Virus record (IMG/VR): IMGVR_UViG_3300024180_000003
Coordinates: 40,849-104,848 of that record
Reading direction: 5' to 3' (one strand)
Origin: a virus
Length of the DNA: 64,000 bases
Below are positions 7,430 through 54,548 of this stretch, piece by piece. Within the stretch, counting starts at the first letter, position 1, and every line of letters begins with the position of its first letter. A program made the position numbers and the translations under genes. The notes under the pieces were generated by a model, which did not search any database, had not been told where the DNA came from, and worked only from the letters and a program-made list of their open reading frames with translations.

Positions 7430-9151
7430 CTATCCAGTATACATAATATATGCTAAAGCAAAGTAAGGAGGTATGTTACTATCGGTTGTAATACTGTGGT
7501 TATGACTTCCTGCACCACCGGTGTAGTATGATACTCCGTTTCTATAGTATACGTACTGATTATCATTATCGCTATCTCCACTTCCTTTATAAGGTCCTCC
7601 GGCTATCGGTCCGTCTACTCCTGATATTGCTTTATGTTGACCTACTCCTGGGTCATTTATCTCAATATAGTATGAATCTTTATAATCATGTTTGTGAGAA
7701 GGTATTTGATTTGTTGTCAGTGTTGTATCTCCTGTGCTTCCTCCGTGATTATGAGTTATGCTTCCTCCTGTAGATTGAGCTCCGCTGCCTTGTACTGTTG
7801 TGGTTGGTGTACCTGTTGTATTATTAGACCCTATAACAAACTTATTCCTTAAATCCGGTGTTGTTATTGAGTTTTGAGTTTGTCCATTACATAAAGCCCA
7901 TCCTGAAGGAAGTGTCTGAACTACTCCAGACCACATTATAATTCCTCCTTGAGGTATTGGTGCTGCATTTACTTGTTTAGTTACTGCACCGTTTGACTCT
8001 CTAACTAAGTAATTATAGTTAGTAGCACTAGTAGCATTTGCGACACTGTTTAAAGTAAGTGTATCATCCAGTGTAGTACTTTGACTCACATATAAAGATC
8101 CAGATATTTCTGTATCGTCTTCTATTGTTGCGGTTCCTGTTACATCTATAAAAGATCCTGATATTCCTCCTGCAACTGTTAGTTTATACGTACCGCCTCC
8201 TACTGCATCTGTTCCTATCCCTACCTGTCCATTACCTTTAAACATTGCTACTAACTTGTTGTAAGTTACATCGAAGTTAGATGATGTAGGTGGTCCTGAT
8301 AGTATTGAGAATGTTTGTGATGTAGTAGCAGTACCGAATGATTTAAGTCCCACTATTACGTGTCCTTTATCTGGTCCGTCTAGCATAAACCCTCTTTGGT
8401 TACCTACGTTATTCATTGCGCTAGTAAAAGGAACTGTAGTATTGTTTGAATCAACATATGCAACTCTAAACTTTGCATTTATATTATTATTGTTACCATC
8501 CACAACCAATGAACCGGAAAGGTTATTATCACCGTGAGATGAATTAGCGTTTCTTGTACTAATTGATCCATCTCCGTTTATACTTAAAGCAGGGGTTGTT
8601 TTGTATCTGTTTACTATAAAATGTATACCTGCAGATTGAGGTGTTGCTGTTGGTGTTGAATGATGGTTAGTAATATTAAAACTACCGTCTCCTGTTTCAT
8701 TTAACTTAAAACTGCTGCTGTAGTTTGTACCTCCATCATCAAACTGTATTGTTAATTCTGGTTCGGATGCTGCGGAAGTTCTTTGAATTTTAATTCCTCC
8801 GTCTCTTATTGATAGTCTATTATCTGATTCTGGTTGAGCATTTGCACCTAGTAGAATTGTATTCGTACCTGCATTCCATCTAAAATCGTCATCTCCACCA
8901 AATGATCCACCGTTATTATACTGTACTGTGCTTGAGTTACCTCCTACTGGTGGGGTTGACCCAGTGTATGGATTCAATGGTATTTGTATCTGTGTTGCTG
9001 AAACCCCTAAACCACTACTTCCTGTGTAATGAAGGTTTAAATACTCTTGGTTACTACTCACTGATGCAGAATAAAAAAATGAGATAAAGTTATTATCTAC
9101 CTCCGAGTATGTTAGTGCTGTTGTTTTGTCTGCTCTTAATACTATAGCCAT
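7430..9151 (-). CDS. Tail fibre with phage tail-collar domain
   Basis: Residues 399-573 are a tail-collar domain: PQGGIIMWSG, LPSGWALCNGQ, TPDLRNKFVIGS and IPPYFALAYIM. His pairs at THNH (about 467), SHKH (about 487) and SHNH (about 551) match the metal-binding tip of T4 gp12-like fibres. The N-terminal 400 residues are Gly/Ser/Thr/Asn-rich beta structure with repeats typical of trimeric fibres. It probably contacts the host surface. No chaperone domain is seen. It is the last gene of the tail operon. Confidence 0.85.
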   Translation of the reverse strand: MAIVLRADKTTALTYSEVDNNFISFFYSASVSSNQEYLNLHYTGSSGLGVSATQIQIPLNPYTGSTPPVGGNSSTVQYNNGGSFGGDDDFRWNAGTNTILLGANAQPESDNRLSIRDGGIKIQRTSAASEPELTIQFDDGGTNYSSSFKLNETGDGSFNITNHHSTPTATPQSAGIHFIVNRYKTTPALSINGDGSISTRNANSSHGDNNLSGSLVVDGNNNNINAKFRVAYVDSNNTTVPFTSAMNNVGNQRGFMLDGPDKGHVIVGLKSFGTATTSQTFSILSGPPTSSNFDVTYNKLVAMFKGNGQVGIGTDAVGGGTYKLTVAGGISGSFIDVTGTATIEDDTEISGSLYVSQSTTLDDTLTLNSVANATSATNYNYLVRESNGAVTKQVNAAPIPQGGIIMWSGVVQTLPSGWALCNGQTQNSITTPDLRNKFVIGSNNTTGTPTTTVQGSGAQSTGGSITHNHGGSTGDTTLTTNQIPSHKHDYKDSYYIEINDPGVGQHKAISGVDGPIAGGPYKGSGDSDNDNQYVYYRNGVSYYTGGAGSHNHSITTDSNIPPYFALAYIMYTG

Positions 9152-13777: not shown

Positions 13778-16700
13778 TTACTTTGTATTATGAGATAGTA
13801 TACCGTTACTTATATATGTACGACATTTTTCTACTGTTAGGCTTACTACCTTTTGTTTCGCCCCTTCTTTTATACTTCTTATTATCTTTCCTGATGCTTT
13901 TTGTTCTACTTTTATATCCCTTAAGGCAATAAATTTATTTTCTTCTTCTATATATACCCTATGTCCTGGAGTGGCTATAAGTACTGTCCCATCTTCAAAT
14001 TCAATTTCTAATGTTTCTTTTTCTGCTGATGAGATTTCCTTACGTATAATTATATCTTCAAACCATTCTAATGTATCTTCATGTTGAGTTCTAATAATAT
14101 CTCCGACCTGTAATTCTTCAGCTAGTTTTTGTTTACCGGTTTTCATTAGAATATTGGTGTCCATACTAACACAGAGTTCATCCTGTGACCAGCCTTGGCT
14201 AGGACCCATTATGTAAGTGTATCCGTCTTTAACAATTTTTTTCCTGTAGGCTCCATATCGTGTGTTAGTTCCAGAATTTTCTGTAACGATAGCTGTGAAA
14301 ACATTACTATTTCCTTTACCGTAAGTTCTATTTCCCAAATACGAATAGTATGGGTTATATGCTTGAAGAAAGTTACCAGGTGACAGCGATTGCATTTCGT
14401 AGTCAGTATTTCCTACGTATCCTCCGTTCTGTTTTGCTCTTACATAGGTTGAACCTGTTTGTGCGTAACCGGTTAGATTAATATAAGTTGGTGGGGTTCC
14501 TGCGCCAGTTGCGTTTTCCCAATCATAATCATATTCTGGTTTATGTGTTACAGATGCTGTGTGGTATGCTCCTACGTTACCGAAGGTGTCAGTAAGGTAT
14601 ACATATCCATAGACAGTATTACCGTAAGTAGGGCTTGAGAAATCTTGACTTGCAAAGTCGTTTATAAAGACACTTGATGTTCCTGGAGTTGCTGATGAAG
14701 CACTTATATATGTTGAGGTTGCTGTTCGTTGAGTTGCTCCAGTGTGGTTTCCGTCAAAAATTACTGAGACTGTACCGTTAAAGTCTACAGAGTGATGCAC
14801 TTGTACTTTGTATGCAGCAGTGTAGTTTATAGACTGTGTTAGAAGTAACATAGCGCTTTCTTTAACTGCAAAGTATCCTGAGTACCCTGAAGGAACTGCT
14901 ACTTGTTTAGGAATCACTTTCCCATGGTGGTGTGCTGCTGTGTGTACTGTTGATTCTGGTGATACATTACCTACTGCGTCTCTTAGTTTAACACTTAGTG
15001 TGATATCGTCTCCATCTGATAAGGTAGAACAGTTTATACTTCCAAAAACGGATGTATTAACAACGCCAAGGCTAGAATAAGCTTCATTACTACTTTCATC
15101 TGATGCAGTTACTATCATTGTAGTACCTACTTCACAGTTATATGCTCTGAAGGGAACGGCAGAAACGTTATTAGATGTTATCGAAGAATTATACCATGCT
15201 GATGAAGGAGCAAGAGGAGCGGTACTGTCTAGTGTACCACAGTTCGTTATACTAAGGATAGTTCCATCTGTCTCTATCTCCATTGCAAATTTTTCAACTG
15301 TATTACCTGTTTGTATTGCTGTACTATAGAAATCTCCTGTTCCATTTCCTGCAAAAACTGTAGCACCGTTGATATCTAAATAAACTTTATCACTTCCGTT
15401 TGCTAAAGGTGGAGATGTAGTCCCATCATGGTAGAATTGATATGCATCTGATATTAATGTAAAAGCACCACACGCAGCAATATTAGTGTTATACTCCGTA
15501 GGATTACTGCTGTCCATTATGAATAGTGATTCTAATACATCAGCACTACTTTGCTCTACTGGGGTTATATTAAATTTTGTTACTGGGTGAGATAAGTATT
15601 TAAATGGGTTATTAACATTTAATTCTCCGTCTGTTATAGTAATAGTAGAGCCTGATAGCTCTCCATTATACTTCGGAGATTCATCTGCTATGTTTTTTGT
15701 AACAGAACCACTTATAGTCTTCACTTCCTCGTTATAGAACGTAGTAGCATTATGTCTTATATTAGTTCTTGACTTATTCTTTCCTCCACTCCAGTTAGGT
15801 ATTGGATATGAATTACTATTTAACATGTAGGTCGGCATAACCGAGTTAAGTGTAGAAGGGTTAGAGGCTATGTTTCCTGATGTTCCTAGCTGTTTTTGTG
15901 ATATTCTTAACGTATCTCCTTCTTCAAATTTAGTTACTATATCTAAGTTAAATCTAAACTTCTGTCCATTAGGGCTATCTATAGCTTCTTTAAATGCTAA
16001 TGCTTTTGTTGCTGCTGAACTACTGTATGGTATTATTACTCCAACTTGACTACTGTAAATATCCCCAGGTGTTCCTGAGCGTCGTACTACGTAGTGTTTT
16101 GTTAAAAGAGGTAGTACATTAGATGTAAGAATTAAACTAGTTGTAGCCTGTGTAGGAGAGTAGTCAGAGTATTTAAATGTAATGTCTACAAATGCTGCTG
16201 TAGGTTCTTCAATAATAAAACCGTTTAACGGGGTGTAAAATTTATGTATTTCTTTCTTAACACCTATAGAACCTGATTGTTCAAATGCTGATAGAATTAC
16301 ATCGTTCGGTAGTGGATCAAAAGAGTGGTAATCGCTACTGTCATTAAATCTAGCAGACCATCTGCTACTTGAGTTCTGTAGGTTGTAAGCTATACATACT
16401 AAATTCGGGTGGTGTATATCGGCATCAAATGAAGTATTCCCTGGGAACCTATTGTCTATTGATTCAGAACTAAACATTATGTAGAAGTCTTGATGTAGAC
16501 TTGCAATAGAACCTGTAGGGTGTATTTCGTAGGGTGTGCCTACAAACTTATCTTTTATAACTGGATCTACTCCTATTACATTACCTGGTTTATATACTTC
16601 TTCTATATTGTACTCAGTTCCATCTGGATGGTAAAATACTGTACCCTGTGGGACTATTTCACCAAAGTCTGCTGATCCAGTAGCAAAATTTATATGAAAA

Positions 16701-19555
16701 TTAATATCTGAATGTCCCCCTACCTTACCTGGGCTGAAATTAACAGGTAGCCCTTTTAGGTGTTTATTTTCCGGTAATACCTTATCATTGTACGCTCCTG
16801 CTGAAGAACCTGTTACAAAAGCTGTATCTATACTTGCTGAGTAAGTATTATCAGTTCCTTCGACTGAGGGTGATTTAATTTTGGATCGTTCTAAACTATG
16901 TGGCTGTATGATAATACCTACATCTAAATTTGCATTAGAGGGTACAAAATCTTTAATCATTTTAAAGAGTACGTTATCGTAGAATTTAAAAATACGTACA
17001 AAATCTTTTAGATTGTAATTTAAATACTCTTTTCCTAAATCCGGAAAAATATTGTACTTCAGTCTCTCTAGCGTATACTTAAACTTATAATCAGGTGATT
17101 CATAAACATCTTTATTAAGATCTCTAGGATCTCCAATCCAATGATCTAGACTAAACTGTGCTTGTGTGTAGTTTGCTCTTATTAAGTCTGCTTGTTCATT
17201 AATGTACTTATTTAACACTGTTGAAGGTGAAAACCCTACTTCTACTTTTCTTGACTTATATATGTTAGTAGATTGTCTATTTCCTTGTGGATTTTCTAAT
17301 GTTATTGATCTATTACCAGTTAGTACTTTTCCATCTTCTGGGATGGATGGTATTACTGTTACGCTGTTTAAAGAAGATGTATAGGCATTTTCCGGTCCAA
17401 AATATATCGAGTCTTCATGCTGCCCGAATGTTTTAATTGTTAAAAAGTCTTTAGGTATACCAAAGCAGTTTATAAGTGCTCTTAGTCCCCGTTCTGTACC
17501 TTTTGATTTAAGTAAAAGTGGTATGTTGTGGTAGAGTCTTTTATATACACTTGCTTCATAATCTTTTGTAGATATAGATTTGCCGGTAGAAGTGGTGCCA
17601 CCTGTAAATGCAGTTGACATTCCTCCGGATAGTTGACCTGCTCCATAAAAGCTAGAACCTGTTATCCATGCTATATTTCCTTGCGGTCCTGCTATTGTTT
17701 GTTTTATTACTATCTCTCCAGCTATAGATGTTGATTCATAAGTAAATTCTCCACCGTGTCCATTACTACTTTTTATAGCATTATTAAATCGATACTCTCT
17801 TGCAACTGCTCCAGTGTAAACACCTGCATTTCCTATATAAAATAATGTATTACCTGTTGCTGCATCTATAGTAGATGTTTTTGATACATCGTTAGTAGCT
17901 TGGTATGTAATTGTTGTTCCTTGTACAGAAGTTAAAGTAATTGTCATATTACTATCTGCAGTATTTGAATCACTTCTAAATCTTATAAAGCCACTTGCAA
18001 ATTCTGCTTCAGTAAAAGGACCTGCGTAGTGATTTATTACTTCGCTTTGACTACCGCTATCGTATGTATCCTGTATAATGTAACTGAATAAGTCGTTTGT
18101 GCCTTCAACAGAATTATACAGTTTTATTCCCATACTCTTTACTGCCTCCTGTACTAAGTCTTTAGATATACCGTAATCTAACCTGTTATCTGTATCGTAC
18201 TTATCTGTTAGAGCTTTAGTGTATATCCATAAGTTATCGTAATGCTGACCGAGCATATGAGTAAATGTAATAGCTGCTTTATTATTATCATCGTCTGCTA
18301 TATATTCTGGTAGAAATCCGGTCAATACATCTAGATTTCTTGCATCATAAGAAGATGCAGATGTTATCTGTTCGTCAAACCACGCTACCGATGCTGTATT
18401 ACTTATCTCTAAATTTACATAAGGTTTATCATCATTAGACTTAGGCCACGACTTAGATCCACTTTCATAGTATAGGAACCTTTCATAGTGATCAAAATTA
18501 TTTACTATACCATCTATTAGGTTCCTTGTTGCTACTATACTTCCGCTTGCTGCTACTGTGTTAGGATTGTTAATTCCTTGTTCTGTAAGTAGGTCACTCT
18601 CATATGCTTCTAGTAGACTTACTTTATATTTAAAGTTTCTAAGTCTTTCTTCAGCAGAAGAAAAGTGAATAAAGTTTTCATACTCTCTATGGTCTATGCC
18701 GATGTTGGCACTCTTTTCATTTATGAGTGAAAATAATTCTTTATTAGAGTTATTAGATTCATAACTAAATAAATCATTTAATTTAAAGTACTCTGTAGGT
18801 GTACTGTCTTGAGTCTCTAATTCTACAGAAAAGTTTGCTTGTCTTAGCTTTGGAGCCTGTCTTTCTTCTTCCTCTATATCAGGTATAACTAAAGTAGCTA
18901 TTGAATCTGATACTTTTTCTACTAGTTGAACATCACTCTTAATATCATATTTATCAGGTAATGGTTCATACAGTCTAAGTGCAACTGTGTATTTGTTATC
19001 TAGTTGGAATGTATCTATATTTGTTACTATCAGAAGATCATTATCTCCCATGTTAAGGGAAAGTTCTTCAAAGTAACTCTTACTCTTTATCTTTTCTTTT
19101 AGTTCGTCTGTTCTATTAATTAACTCGTTAACTTTTATCTTATCGGAATAAAGTAAAACTTCTTTACGGTCTGTTGATATACTGTGTATGTATAAATCTT
19201 GCTTACCGTTACCTATTGTGAATACATCGTTTAAAAAGTGAAATAGTACCTTTACTTTAGTACGTGCAAATCCTTGCTGTATGGCTAGTTCAGCAGGTTT
19301 TAATTCTATTTCTGTTGATTTTTGATCTTCTGTGGGTATACTTAGGTTTGGAACCGGAAGTGAGTAGTTATACGAAGAGTACAGTCTATAATTATTTACC
19401 GTATAGAAGTGAGTCTCAATATAATGCTTATTAAAGTCAAACTCCTTGTTAACTTTAAAATTGTCTATTAAATTAAGATCCTTACTTGAGTATTTCTCTA
19501 CATCAGGTAAGCTATTAGCAATAATATCTTGTGAAGTGTATGTTACTTTAGCCAT
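13778..19555 (-). CDS. Giant tail protein ending in Hint/intein-like domain
   Basis: At 1925 residues it is the largest gene here. Most of it is beta-rich virion-type sequence, and its place next to baseplate genes suggests a large tail or baseplate protein. Residues 1795-1923 form a complete Hint domain: CVSMDTNI at the N-terminal splice junction, TPGH (TxxH) in block B, and final ILSHN. Only Thr-Lys follows before the stop. All classic splicing residues (Cys1, block B His, penultimate His, terminal Asn, Thr +1) are present. Splicing would leave ..QDEL-TK; cleavage without splicing would release the domain or make a reactive thioester. Confidence 0.8.
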   Translation of the reverse strand: MAKVTYTSQDIIANSLPDVEKYSSKDLNLIDNFKVNKEFDFNKHYIETHFYTVNNYRLYSSYNYSLPVPNLSIPTEDQKSTEIELKPAELAIQQGFARTKVKVLFHFLNDVFTIGNGKQDLYIHSISTDRKEVLLYSDKIKVNELINRTDELKEKIKSKSYFEELSLNMGDNDLLIVTNIDTFQLDNKYTVALRLYEPLPDKYDIKSDVQLVEKVSDSIATLVIPDIEEEERQAPKLRQANFSVELETQDSTPTEYFKLNDLFSYESNNSNKELFSLINEKSANIGIDHREYENFIHFSSAEERLRNFKYKVSLLEAYESDLLTEQGINNPNTVAASGSIVATRNLIDGIVNNFDHYERFLYYESGSKSWPKSNDDKPYVNLEISNTASVAWFDEQITSASSYDARNLDVLTGFLPEYIADDDNNKAAITFTHMLGQHYDNLWIYTKALTDKYDTDNRLDYGISKDLVQEAVKSMGIKLYNSVEGTNDLFSYIIQDTYDSGSQSEVINHYAGPFTEAEFASGFIRFRSDSNTADSNMTITLTSVQGTTITYQATNDVSKTSTIDAATGNTLFYIGNAGVYTGAVAREYRFNNAIKSSNGHGGEFTYESTSIAGEIVIKQTIAGPQGNIAWITGSSFYGAGQLSGGMSTAFTGGTTSTGKSISTKDYEASVYKRLYHNIPLLLKSKGTERGLRALINCFGIPKDFLTIKTFGQHEDSIYFGPENAYTSSLNSVTVIPSIPEDGKVLTGNRSITLENPQGNRQSTNIYKSRKVEVGFSPSTVLNKYINEQADLIRANYTQAQFSLDHWIGDPRDLNKDVYESPDYKFKYTLERLKYNIFPDLGKEYLNYNLKDFVRIFKFYDNVLFKMIKDFVPSNANLDVGIIIQPHSLERSKIKSPSVEGTDNTYSASIDTAFVTGSSAGAYNDKVLPENKHLKGLPVNFSPGKVGGHSDINFHINFATGSADFGEIVPQGTVFYHPDGTEYNIEEVYKPGNVIGVDPVIKDKFVGTPYEIHPTGSIASLHQDFYIMFSSESIDNRFPGNTSFDADIHHPNLVCIAYNLQNSSSRWSARFNDSSDYHSFDPLPNDVILSAFEQSGSIGVKKEIHKFYTPLNGFIIEEPTAAFVDITFKYSDYSPTQATTSLILTSNVLPLLTKHYVVRRSGTPGDIYSSQVGVIIPYSSSAATKALAFKEAIDSPNGQKFRFNLDIVTKFEEGDTLRISQKQLGTSGNIASNPSTLNSVMPTYMLNSNSYPIPNWSGGKNKSRTNIRHNATTFYNEEVKTISGSVTKNIADESPKYNGELSGSTITITDGELNVNNPFKYLSHPVTKFNITPVEQSSADVLESLFIMDSSNPTEYNTNIAACGAFTLISDAYQFYHDGTTSPPLANGSDKVYLDINGATVFAGNGTGDFYSTAIQTGNTVEKFAMEIETDGTILSITNCGTLDSTAPLAPSSAWYNSSITSNNVSAVPFRAYNCEVGTTMIVTASDESSNEAYSSLGVVNTSVFGSINCSTLSDGDDITLSVKLRDAVGNVSPESTVHTAAHHHGKVIPKQVAVPSGYSGYFAVKESAMLLLTQSINYTAAYKVQVHHSVDFNGTVSVIFDGNHTGATQRTATSTYISASSATPGTSSVFINDFASQDFSSPTYGNTVYGYVYLTDTFGNVGAYHTASVTHKPEYDYDWENATGAGTPPTYINLTGYAQTGSTYVRAKQNGGYVGNTDYEMQSLSPGNFLQAYNPYYSYLGNRTYGKGNSNVFTAIVTENSGTNTRYGAYRKKIVKDGYTYIMGPSQGWSQDELCVSMDTNILMKTGKQKLAEELQVGDIIRTQHEDTLEWFEDIIIRKEISSAEKETLEIEFEDGTVLIATPGHRVYIEEENKFIALRDIKVEQKASGKIIRSIKEGAKQKVVSLTVEKCRTYISNGILSHNTK
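13787..14173 (-). other. Hint/mini-intein coding segment (129 aa)
   Basis: The segment runs from Cys1 (14171-14173) to Asn129 (13787-13789). It has no homing endonuclease insert, so it is a mini-intein or bacterial intein-like (BIL) domain. The C-terminal extein would be two residues, far shorter than in ordinary inteins. Confidence 0.75.
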
Positions 19556-21629: not shown

Positions 21630-23423
21630 TTATAATGTTGTTATTCTACCTTGAATATCGTTGTCTGGGTATTTTAATTCAAATATCATAGGATCTAATG
21701 AAGGGAAAATAATATTGTCTTTCATTGCTCCCGGTATATCGTAATCGTACTCAGAATAGCTACCTCCGGTTTTAGTTGTTATCTTAATATTCTGTATTGT
21801 TTGAACTCCTTTTATTCTATCTAATAATGTATATACTGTTGATAAGTTTATCGGTTGATTAATTAATCGATTCGATGTTCTAAAGTAATTCTTTAATGCT
21901 AAAGAGCAGTTGAATAGAACTTCTCTAGAATTGTAATTAGGTAGTGATATTATATCATAATTAATACCTATGTTTATAATGTAAGCATCTTTAATATCAA
22001 GAGAATCGGTTAACATCATATACGGTGCAAGGTATTCTTTTAGATTATTTTTAAGTTGTGTTGAACCTTCTGTTAGTTTATAATCCTTATCATACGCTAA
22101 AACATACAAACATACATTAGTACTGTCAATTCTATCATAGCTTTTGGCATTACTTGTTGTAACTATGTCTGGTGTTGTCACAAATGATTTAGCTATTGCT
22201 CCTAGATTAGGTGTCATAGTCAAGGCTCTAAATGCATAATCTTGCTTAGTTACTAGTCTACCTTGCTCTGCAAAAGCTTTAAGAGAGTTTTGTCTTACTT
22301 CTTCTGCTGAATCTCCGTCTTTACCTCCCGTTGCAGGTTTTGGATTATTATAAGTTAACGTACCTGAATAGGTATTATCTATTGCTGTATATGTAGCATT
22401 TGTTGAAGTTGTAAGTGTGTTTGCTTCTACATTTGATGCAACTCCTCCACCTCGTAGATACCTAACTGTCAGTACGGTGCTAGATGGTGCTATACCGTAA
22501 CTGTCTGTATATAAGAAGTTAGAAGGATCATATGCATAATCTAGTCTACTTATACCTCCAGTGAATGGAGAACCAATATTTGTCGGGTTAGGTACAACAG
22601 CTGTATTCTCTGTTGTTGGTGCTCCTGATCCGAATTGAACTTGCATTTGGTTGTTAGACCTTAATCTTGTTACAAATCTTCTCGGAACATTGATTAATGT
22701 TAATAGGTCTTCTGACCCTGTGATGTTTGTAGTTTCATATACTGTTTCTTGACCTAAGTACGGTACTTCGTACCATTTATCTCCATTGCTGTCTACTATA
22801 TCAAGTACTCCTATTATATTAATGTCATCTATTTCAAAAGTAAAGTTTTGCTGGTGTCCTATTACTTCTACTGTTTTAGTAGCTATCTCTCCTGCTGATG
22901 CTGTTGCCTTTTTTGTAAGTATGAATTCCGAAGGATTATCTCCCATTAATGAAAAAATTGTAACATCTGTAGGGTCATAAGAACTGGAAAATTTAAAATC
23001 AACTGGTTGATTAATTACAAATTTTTGTTTACCGTATTCTAATTGAACATTGCCGTTTACAGATAAGGCTTGATCCCAATCTGGTGTATAGGATGCTCCT
23101 GATGCGGCTACACGTTGTGATACTTCGATTTCTACTGATGATGCTCTTGTTGCTCTTGGTCGATATCCCATCATGTAAGCTAATGTATATAGGTTACTTG
23201 GGTTTTGAGCGTACTGTAGGTATGTTTCTTGAAGTTGTGAGTCTTGGTAGAAAGATAATATGTCTCCTACATAAGCAGACATTTCCATAAACATCATACC
23301 TGGTGATGTTGCAGAGAAGTCGTTATAGCTATCTGGGAAGTAGTTCTTAGACATCTCTATTAACTGCTGTCTTAAGCTGTTAAAGTCTTTGTCTGTATAT
23401 TTTATACTAATATTTTGAGCCAT
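21630..23423 (-). CDS. Baseplate wedge protein, T4 gp6-like (J family)
   Basis: The N-terminus carries the family hallmark: YTDKDFNSLRQQLIEMSKNYFPD, then TSPGMMFMEMSAYVGDILSFYQD and YMMGYRPRAT. The middle contains EVRQNSLKAFAEQGRLVTKQDY, also typical of J/gp6 proteins. It is 597 residues, close to T4 gp6. It would form the wedge dimer ring of the contractile-tail baseplate. It lies directly beside the gp25-like gene, as in other T4-like phages. Confidence 0.9.
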   Translation of the reverse strand: MAQNISIKYTDKDFNSLRQQLIEMSKNYFPDSYNDFSATSPGMMFMEMSAYVGDILSFYQDSQLQETYLQYAQNPSNLYTLAYMMGYRPRATRASSVEIEVSQRVAASGASYTPDWDQALSVNGNVQLEYGKQKFVINQPVDFKFSSSYDPTDVTIFSLMGDNPSEFILTKKATASAGEIATKTVEVIGHQQNFTFEIDDINIIGVLDIVDSNGDKWYEVPYLGQETVYETTNITGSEDLLTLINVPRRFVTRLRSNNQMQVQFGSGAPTTENTAVVPNPTNIGSPFTGGISRLDYAYDPSNFLYTDSYGIAPSSTVLTVRYLRGGGVASNVEANTLTTSTNATYTAIDNTYSGTLTYNNPKPATGGKDGDSAEEVRQNSLKAFAEQGRLVTKQDYAFRALTMTPNLGAIAKSFVTTPDIVTTSNAKSYDRIDSTNVCLYVLAYDKDYKLTEGSTQLKNNLKEYLAPYMMLTDSLDIKDAYIINIGINYDIISLPNYNSREVLFNCSLALKNYFRTSNRLINQPINLSTVYTLLDRIKGVQTIQNIKITTKTGGSYSEYDYDIPGAMKDNIIFPSLDPMIFELKYPDNDIQGRITTL

Positions 23424-23425
23424 TT

Positions 23426-23833
23426 TTATACTATGTTAATTAAGATTTCATCCTCTAAGTCTGTTCCTACTATGGCAAACTTTAAGCCAAACTCTATTGT
23501 GTTATATTCTGTTTTATTTTCTAGAAATAAGTCTATAATATTAAGTTCAGGGAAATAGTTTACTAATGCTTCTCTTATTAGTACTTCAATATCTTCTAAG
23601 TTTTCAACAGTAGCGTTTTCAAAAAGCATACTTCTAAGTCCTGAACCAAACGTAGGTCTAAGATATCTTTCACCTTTTCCTGTTAGTAGGTAATTTATTA
23701 AATTTGCTTTGATCGCATCAATAGATTGATATGTAGAATTAAATACAGCATTACCTGAGAAAGGTATCGCTACACCTATTGCTTTTCTAGGTTGTAAATC
23801 TAACGGATTAATCTTTTTTGCTTCAAATGCCAT
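23426..23833 (-). CDS. Baseplate wedge protein, T4 gp25-like
   Basis: Its 135 residues match the gp25/GPW family: INYLLTGKGERYLRPTFGSGLRSMLFE, then LEDIEVLIREALVNYFPEL. This protein nucleates sheath assembly on the baseplate. The gene is two bases before the gp6-like gene. Confidence 0.9.
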   Translation of the reverse strand: MAFEAKKINPLDLQPRKAIGVAIPFSGNAVFNSTYQSIDAIKANLINYLLTGKGERYLRPTFGSGLRSMLFENATVENLEDIEVLIREALVNYFPELNIIDLFLENKTEYNTIEFGLKFAIVGTDLEDEILINIV

Positions 23834-53099: not shown

Positions 53100-54548
53100 T
53101 TAGTAAATTAATTTATGTTCTGTGTATTTAGGTGCAAGGTCTTCTACCTTTATAAAGTCAAATTTAGGTCTTGGTATGAAGTTTTCAAAACATTCATCAA
53201 TACAGTTACCAATATTCTTTGACATATTTTTAGAAGACATCTGTGCTTCTTCTGATGTTACCCATTCTCTACCTTTCTTACCTTTCTTTAAACGATCTTC
53301 AGGTGTCATACTAAAAGACTTAAATATTGCTTCTGCTATATCTTCTGCTGAACATCTATCGTCAAATATATAAGGTGTGGGAACTGACCCAACTAATGAG
53401 ATGTTACTTGGAAAGATCGGTATAGACCATTCACCATGTTCTTTATAAGTACCTCTATGATTAGAAGGTATATCCTTACTCGGTGTAAACCATTCTCCTT
53501 TATCATCAGTAAATCTCATTTGGTCTTGCATACCTCCTGTTACGTTAGCTGCAATCATAGTTTCTGACATCATTGCTTCTGTCAATGCTAATCCCCATCC
53601 TTCGTTAGAAGAAGGTAAAACAACTAAGTCTGCTAAATTATATAACCAATTCATTTGAGGTGTTGTTAATTTACCTTCCGAGAAATATACATTAACATAT
53701 TCTGGATCACATAGGTTCTCTCTAACTGCTCTTAAGTCTGTACCGTTTTGATCTACACTTTGAGTATGGAGTATTAAAGCACATTTTTTAGCTTCTTCCT
53801 TTCCTATCTTATCGCAGAATAGTCTATAAGCAAAAATTAGATCTGGTACGCTCTTTCTTCTTATGTTACGTGAATTAAACATAACTACGTATTCTATATC
53901 TGTACGGTTCTCAAATACTGAGTTTTTAAATTCCTGGAAACCTTTAAACTGCTCATCATCTTTATGAATCTTAAAGAACATATTCTCATCTATACCGTGA
54001 GGTACGTATCTGATGATCTTACTTTTAGCATCTTCTCCTAATACCAATTTATTAATGTTAACAGTTTGTTTTGATATACCCATTAATAAATCACAGGAAT
54101 TGTAGTATACTTTATTGTAAAGTGGTGCAGGGTAATCATCCCATATGTTTAGGTACATAATAGGTATATGCGATCTAATTTCTCTTTCAATATCAAATAA
54201 CCATGTCCAATATCTAGGGTCAGTAAAAATCATTATAGCATCAGGTTTCTCTTGAGCTATAAGACTCCTAACTAAACCAACGTCTCCATATCCATTATAA
54301 GGAATCAGTTTAACGTCTGAGTCAGTCATGTTGGTAAGTTTATTTACTTCATTAGATACATCTTGCCCTTTTCCAGCATCTGGATGTTTTAATGCTCCTG
54401 CTACATGTACCCAGTTAAACTTATGAGCTAACCCAAATACAAACTCTTTACCCATAGTTGCGATACCTGAGTGCATTCTAATATCATCACAAAGTAGAAG
54501 AATCTTTTTTCTATCTTCTTTCTTTATATAACCTTCTCTATTTGTCAT
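53100..54548 (-). CDS. Glycosyltransferase, GT-B (group 1) type
   Basis: It has 482 residues. NSRNIRRKSVPDLIFAYRLF and WLYNLADLVVLPSSNEGWGLALTEAMMSETMIAANVTGG are GT4-like acceptor/donor motifs. It overlaps the ribbon-helix-helix gene by 11 bases. Confidence 0.8.
   Translation of the reverse strand: MTNREGYIKKEDRKKILLLCDDIRMHSGIATMGKEFVFGLAHKFNWVHVAGALKHPDAGKGQDVSNEVNKLTNMTDSDVKLIPYNGYGDVGLVRSLIAQEKPDAIMIFTDPRYWTWLFDIEREIRSHIPIMYLNIWDDYPAPLYNKVYYNSCDLLMGISKQTVNINKLVLGEDAKSKIIRYVPHGIDENMFFKIHKDDEQFKGFQEFKNSVFENRTDIEYVVMFNSRNIRRKSVPDLIFAYRLFCDKIGKEEAKKCALILHTQSVDQNGTDLRAVRENLCDPEYVNVYFSEGKLTTPQMNWLYNLADLVVLPSSNEGWGLALTEAMMSETMIAANVTGGMQDQMRFTDDKGEWFTPSKDIPSNHRGTYKEHGEWSIPIFPSNISLVGSVPTPYIFDDRCSAEDIAEAIFKSFSMTPEDRLKKGKKGREWVTSEEAQMSSKNMSKNIGNCIDECFENFIPRPKFDFIKVEDLAPKYTEHKLIY

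Follow-up and report, generated by a model that had tools for sequence, protein, structure and literature searches.

A C-terminal Hint domain on a marine phage tail protein belongs to a family with a conserved lysine after its His-Asn end

Introduction

A thioester formed at the first residue of a Hint domain (Cys1) needs an acceptor, which inteins supply as the Cys, Ser or Thr directly after the domain (position +1). The Hog domain of Hedgehog is a C-terminal Hint that removes itself, using cholesterol and a sterol recognition region located after the Hint, and in the PT-HINTs of polymorphic toxins the Hint is followed by a toxin domain. Type A BILs lack the +1 Cys, Ser or Thr, and a free amine is proposed as their acceptor (PMC4031507). 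The BIL2 domain of Tetrahymena BUBL1 is described as splicing by an unusual route, in which an isopeptide bond is formed with a lysine side chain, and as conjugating its neighbour to other substrates (PMC8616854). Among the papers listed in searches of the open-access literature, we recognised none that describes phage tail proteins ending in a Hint. Here we analyse such a domain, encoded in a 64,000-nt stretch of DNA from a marine phage (hereafter the window, meaning the full stretch), and compare it with these systems.

Results

A complete Hint domain at the end of a tail protein

The Hint (Cys1795 to Asn1923) and a terminal Thr-Lys make up the last 131 residues of the tail protein, and a stop codon follows directly (Table 1). 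The sequence reads ...SQGWSQDEL up to the domain, which begins with CVSMDT at Cys1795, continues through ATPGHRVY and ends TYISNGILSHN at Asn1923. Two NCBIfam models recognised the domain, TIGR01445 (intein N-terminal region, 27.4 bits against a cut-off of 24.5) and TIGR01443 (intein C-terminal region, 18.1 bits against 15.6). The Pfam families Intein_splicing (E 4.8e-4) and Hint (E 7.7e-4) also matched, both under their curated cut-offs. An AlphaFold2 model of the last 151 residues reached a mean pLDDT of 91.4, with the N-terminal flank and the final Lys poorly placed, and fitted solved Hint structures, the best being 6y75 (Z 20.8, rmsd 1.6 over 134 residues). Frame, NCBIfam models and AlphaFold2 model thus agree on what the initial annotation had proposed, a complete Hint at the end of the tail protein followed only by Thr-Lys, and the splice residues it had listed (Cys1, TPGH, His-Asn, Thr+1) are all present in the window copy.

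Table 1. Features of the window, with the Hint-bearing tail protein and its surrounding genes
Feature	Position	Strand	Evidence
Tail/baseplate-region protein, 1925 aa, Hint at C-terminus	13778..19555	-	Open frame, ATG start; homologues in Flavobacterium phage immuto and many viral contigs
Hint domain, residues 1795-1923 (129 residues)	13787..14173	-	TIGR01445 and TIGR01443 over cut-off, model and PDB matches, low dN/dS
Cys1795 (Cys1), predicted thioester residue	14171..14173	-	Invariant in 37/37 representatives
His1865, block-B His of TPGH	13961..13963	-	Invariant in 37/37 representatives
His1922-Asn1923, predicted Asn cyclisation site	13787..13792	-	37/37 representatives; 55/55 loci in search with pattern ending before His-Asn
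Thr1924-Lys1925, entire C-terminal flank, of which Lys is conserved	13781..13786	-	Lys at +1/+2/+3 in 37/37 representatives
Downstream neighbour, 603 aa	11942..13753	-	Same family in 10/10 Hint-bearing and 41/48 Hint-less homologues
Tail collar fibre gene, same cluster, downstream	7430..9151	-	Pfam Collar over cut-off; phrog_5795 E 1.4e-27
Baseplate wedge gene (gp6-like), upstream, two ORFs between	21630..23423	-	phrog_219 E 1.2e-12
Second wedge-type gene, after gp6-like gene	23426-23833		phrog_261 E 5.7e-13
Glycosyltransferase-like gene	53100-54548	-	phrog_2170 E 1.9e-18

TAA follows directly after the Thr-Lys codons, with a further in-frame stop two codons on, and a longer C-extein was absent from every frame downstream of the Hint. 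Frameshifting or read-through into a longer C-extein was ruled out: two frames stop soon, and in the third the ATG of a separate downstream gene (13753) is reached only past two in-frame stops. With a C-extein of two residues and none longer in any frame, ordinary splicing is hardly the point of the domain, as the initial annotation had supposed. No second Hint was found in the window's record (104,848 bases, possibly incomplete) using two queries. For the 1925-aa protein as a whole there was no PHROG family at E 0.1; the AlphaFold2 model of its body (residues 1-932) was poor (pLDDT 47.5), and a profile of the body against the PDB gave four matches at E up to 1, the best at E 0.18 and none convincing.

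Close relatives of the C-terminal part of the tail protein occur on six viral contigs, five of them identical to the window across the whole protein and one (L004) 88.5% identical with the same end. L004 is the sole divergent near relative, and the dN/dS comparison rests on this pair: the Hint showed dN 0.013 and dS 0.345 (dN/dS about 0.04), against dN 0.182 and dS 0.463 (dN/dS 0.39) for the 194 residues directly before it and dN/dS of about 0.14 and 0.17 for the other two parts of the protein. The window Hint is under strong purifying selection, and because dN is far lower in the Hint than in the preceding 194 residues, the domain is more than a chance occurrence.

Comparison with described Hint systems

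A sequence-profile search of the PDB placed Tetrahymena BIL2 first (E 4.4e-9; 4.2e-13 in a second run), with the Clostridium BIL as the second BIL in the list (E 1.1e-10), so the comparison with BILs made at the outset was apt. BIL2 (6y75, 6tmm) was the top match by both sequence profile and fold, although the fold scores of BIL2 (Z 20.8) and the Ssp DnaB intein (Z 20.7) are a tie. It differs from the phage domain in being located between ubiquitin-like domains in a ciliate, in having Met at +1, where the profile match ends with no Lys seen at +2, and in its reactive Lys, which reportedly belongs to the domain that follows. Type A BILs, for example that of Clostridium thermocellum (2lwy, fold Z 19.4), share Cys1 and the His-Asn end, and the phage Hint family, like them, is mostly without a +1 nucleophile; the phage domains differ in capping tail proteins, with 2-12 residues after them and a near-invariant Lys. 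Type A BILs have no Cys, Ser or Thr at +1, which holds for 35 of 37 family representatives, whereas the window copy has Thr1924, and we therefore call it BIL-like rather than filing it as a type A BIL.

Class 1 mini-inteins share the fold, and the window copy has their Cys1, block-B His, His-Asn and +1 Thr. They differ, however, in that here there is no in-frame second extein part and a C-extein of two residues, while the phage +1 position is not conserved and the module is common to different tail proteins. The Hog domain is alike in fold (1at0, Z 19.5), but the window Hint has no sterol recognition region, only two residues being present after it. PT-HINTs differ for a similar reason, as only Thr-Lys follows the window Hint, and a search of the window's record with PF07591 gave no match.

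A family of Hint domains on phage tail proteins

Searches with seven Hints detected 62 loci in viral contigs and two in genomes. Three of these 64 loci (L083, L084, L085) were set aside as no Cys1 or no His-Asn was found; the remaining 61 comprise 55 distinct Hints, with 37 representatives at <75% identity, among which L048, identical to the window Hint, represents the window type. Identity to the window Hint ranged from 21 to 45%, near-identical representatives excluded, and all 37 keep Thr-Tyr, Gly and Ser-His-Asn in addition to Cys1 and the block-B His. The Asn is followed by 12 or fewer residues in 31 of the 36 representatives with a closed end, the other five Hints being internal; L066 has a one-residue tail at its contig end. 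The window Hint is thus a member of a family widespread in uncultured phages and not a stray intein.

The module is carried by N-terminal parts without mutual similarity (threshold E 1e-8 over 60 residues). These include the window type (19 distinct sequences), tail-fibre/J-like proteins (16 distinct sequences; L087, a prophage copy with an IK tail and the same Hint as L059, matched phrog_5616 at E 3.5e-61 and J at E 1.8e-16), short tail proteins (six distinct sequences; L054, phrog_376 at E 5.3e-30), phrog_358 proteins (L029 and L032 tested, five more assigned by Hint similarity) and a J protein (L067, phrog_31 at E 6e-100). The host protein of L068 resembles lambda tail protein I, only under Pfam's cut-off, and those of L012 and L017 had no convincing family match. 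In a tree of the Hints the window type forms one group (support 100/99), while J-like and short-tail Hints are interleaved, with well-supported forks forcing at least two changes of the short-tail label. We infer from these sequences that the module has probably moved between tail genes.

Searched against isolated phages, the window Hint gave 13 matching records, annotated as helicase, RecA-like/DNA repair, NTPase and one hypothetical protein (SCTP-2), with the fecal MT835519 unannotated. Two of these records were read: the isolated phage SCTP-2 has two inteins with HN followed by Ser, and the MT835519 protein ends HN then IKQQEQLQ, which is the capped architecture. The Hint of L012 matched 11 records and that of L045 nine Corynebacterium terminases, and 17 of the 18 records found with the Hint of L087 were 33-residue matches in Gordonia portal proteins. 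Plasmids searched with the C-terminal part of L087 gave no match, and in the Sphingomonad family three of 298 genomes matched.

The residue kept after His-Asn is a lysine

All 37 representatives carry a Lys shortly after the Asn, at +1 in six, +2 in 30 and +3 in one. A mean Lys content of 4.2% would place Lys in the first three positions in about 12% of proteins, an expectation that carries no probability as the sequences are related by descent. The +1 residue itself varies widely (Ile in 10; Lys, Val and Leu in six each; Asn in four; Thr and Ala in two each; Gly in one), and relatives in the window-type tail family end GK, NK, IK or VK. The initial annotation had counted Thr+1 as a meaningful splice residue, a reading that did not hold up across the family: Cys, Ser or Thr is found at +1 in only two of the 37 representatives and is absent from 35, and it is Lys that is kept instead. 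The position of the Lys differs with context, being +1 in nine of 10 distinct internal Hints and +2 in 41 of 43 C-terminal ones.

Two further searches were made with truncated queries. One was blind to the tail, with an alignment ending at the Asn and a pattern ending before His-Asn; each of its 55 loci had both His-Asn and Cys1 (in four, the Cys lay just before the matched part), and Lys was present at +1 or +2 in all 54 readable tails. The other used only the N-terminal 75 residues and gave 54 loci, of which 30 were read, two of them cut off, and 24 were not re-read, lying on contigs already found before. Lys stood at +1 or +2 from the His-Asn place in 26 of the 28 uncut loci, 17 with HN and nine with RT in place of HN yet still followed by x-Lys. 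The exceptions were one locus without Cys1 and with RR after HN, and L198, with Lys at +4. The three search sets share many contigs and are therefore not independent. Judging by these sequences, the residue kept after the Asn is Lys, and Thr+1 is incidental.

A Hint profile was also run against genomes of the class (385) and phylum (398) of the L087 host, giving 29 rows, two of which were the known Sphingomonas copy; the other 27 were read by eye. His-Asn with a readable flank was present in 17 of the 27 bacterial rows. Nine of these have Lys at +1 or +2 (L148, L149, L150, L152, L159, L160, L161, L167, L169), five of them ending five or fewer residues after the Asn, and eight do not (L153, L154, L156, L163, L170, L171, L172, L174). 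Beyond the phage tail family, many but not all BIL-like Hints thus have Lys after His-Asn. In L150 (1450-2682, - strand), L159 (1252-3141, - strand), L160 (479-1450, + strand), L161 and L169 the Hint is terminal, with HN-Lys and up to four more residues, and some of these five proteins have N-termini that look exported by eye.

Natural variants in multi-Hint proteins

The nine RT loci and the RR locus all come from a single type of phage protein, in which four Hints stand in tandem, separated by proline-rich linkers (L181 4345-7824, L189 4345-7863, L184-L187, L191, L192, L194 and L196; six distinct sequences among the 10 loci). Copy 1 has Cys1, RT in place of HN, and VK; copy 2 lacks Cys1 and has HN followed by RR; copies 3 and 4 have Cys1 and HN, followed by LK and K, respectively. 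Homologues lacking the catalytic Cys and Asn had been named in the initial annotation as evidence that would count against processing; what occurs is copies lacking one of the two, in this single kind of protein, with intact copies beside them. In a separate arrangement, L198 (4258-7020) has two Hints six residues apart, the first with its Lys at +4 and the second with HN followed by Lys.

Scanning the retrieved viral loci with a profile yielded 95 distinct Hint rows; six were incomplete and were dropped, leaving 89. Cys1, HN and Lys occur together in 76 of the 89, and Cys1 and Lys without HN in two. HN without Cys1 or Lys was seen in seven, comprising the two RR copies and five intein-like rows or halves with Ser, Cys or Thr at +1, and Cys1 and HN without Lys in two, namely L198 and an intein-like row with Ser at +1. 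The last two are first halves of interrupted intein-like rows. Intein-like rows with Ser, Cys or Thr at +1 were without a downstream Lys. Where the catalytic ends have come apart, Lys tracks Cys1 and not the Asn, in what is one lineage and not a set of independent cases.

Gene neighbourhood and homologues of the tail protein

Homologues of the tail protein also occur without the Hint, for example in the isolated Flavobacterium phage immuto (L024; 1,265 residues, no terminal Hint) and likewise in Microcystis phage Mel-JY01. The N-terminal 932 residues as a query detected at least 491 related stretches, 80 of which were kept; among these 80 listed, 62 have a closed end and 10 of the 62 bear a Hint, three being the window type or L004 again. 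In L257, a more distant homologue and one of these 10, the C-terminal part is longer and encloses a differently worded Hint with HN followed by Lys, which may have been gained separately.

The gene directly downstream was considered as a Hint-specific ligation partner and rejected. A neighbour was readable in 58 of the 62 closed-end homologues, and its family accompanies every Hint-bearing and most Hint-less ones (Table 1), hence it is a general neighbour of the tail protein. The neighbour is 558-635 aa long in nine of the 10 Hint-bearing phages (377 in L257), compared with 110-498 aa in the Hint-less ones read.

Discussion

We propose that the domain caps the C-terminus of the tail protein as a BIL-like module able to excise itself, with the conserved downstream Lys as putative acyl acceptor, a reading for which we consider the balance to be even. 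Its two parts differ in strength: on sequence grounds, self-processing of the tail protein by the Hint is likely, while the role of the Lys as acyl acceptor is tentative. The acyl group of Leu1794 would pass to Cys1795 to form a thioester, and the amine of the conserved Lys (Lys1925 in the window) would stand in for the +1 Cys, Ser or Thr of inteins, giving a side-chain amide; the freed alpha-amine may be an alternative acceptor. Cyclisation of Asn1923 would then free the Hint, and the mature tail protein would end ...SQDEL bearing a short TK peptide. The purpose might be, as a guess, a temporary cap or folding aid, by analogy with the self-removed chaperone domains of tail fibres.

As Lys is tolerated at +1 or +2, a side-chain acceptor would fit better than a backbone role. 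Several points count against the Lys reading: the window Thr+1 could splice normally, Lys is at +1 or +2 in only nine of the 17 readable bacterial BIL-like Hints, Lys lies at +4 in L198 and is missing from the RR copies, the joint loss of Cys1 and Lys comes from one lineage, and the structural model leaves the final Lys ill-placed. Extended to a whole class of phage-borne Hints, the proposal is more speculative still: the side-chain amine of a Lys at +1 or +2 might take the place of the nucleophile that inteins have at +1. Proteins of the tail tip, fibres and baseplate region would then self-excise the Hint and be left with an isopeptide-capped C-terminus, a process equivalent to protein splicing but dependent on lysine, and widespread among uncultured phages.

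Plain type A BIL behaviour, in which hydrolysis and Asn cyclisation cut both ends, sometimes with alpha-amine ligation, and the Lys helps only by its charge or position, is rather unlikely to be the full account. Such behaviour is known for type A BILs (PMC4031507) and agrees with the 35 of 37 representatives that have no nucleophile at +1, but it leaves unexplained both the retention of Lys, at +1 or +2, in flanks that otherwise differ greatly and the joint loss of Lys and Cys1. Covalent attachment in trans, in which an amine on the host surface or on a different virion protein would take over the thioester and the Lys would serve as a fall-back acceptor, is improbable. A flexible stretch often precedes Cys1 (Gly, Pro and Ser make up 52% of the preceding 12 residues against 22% overall), the proteins carrying the module are tail proteins, and BIL2 is described as conjugating its neighbour to other substrates (PMC8616854). 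However, no partner was found, the downstream family occurring with and without the Hint, and any partner would face competition from the acceptor built in beside the active site.

Ordinary class 1 mini-intein splicing through Thr+1, yielding ...QDEL-TK, is slightly more improbable again. Despite the full set of class 1 residues in the window copy and both NCBI intein-end models over cut-off, the extein would be two residues long, Thr+1 is not kept even within the same tail family (GK, NK, IK, VK), and other tail proteins are capped by the same module. That the Hint is a retained structural domain without activity, as the loss of one catalytic end in copies of one multi-Hint protein kind might suggest, is scarcely credible, since all 37 divergent representatives retain Cys1, the block-B His and His-Asn.

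If the Lys-dependent self-excision proposed here is true, these phages would provide a natural set of domains for a lysine-based splicing chemistry that, in the literature consulted, is described for Tetrahymena BIL2 alone. Dissecting this chemistry is made easy by the two-residue tail and by the natural variants, of which one type keeps Cys1 and Lys but has lost His-Asn and the other keeps His-Asn but has lost Cys1 and Lys. Such domains might also serve for attaching proteins to amines. For the phages themselves, it would mean an extra maturation step in tail assembly, one missed by family annotation, PHROGs having assigned this tail protein no family.
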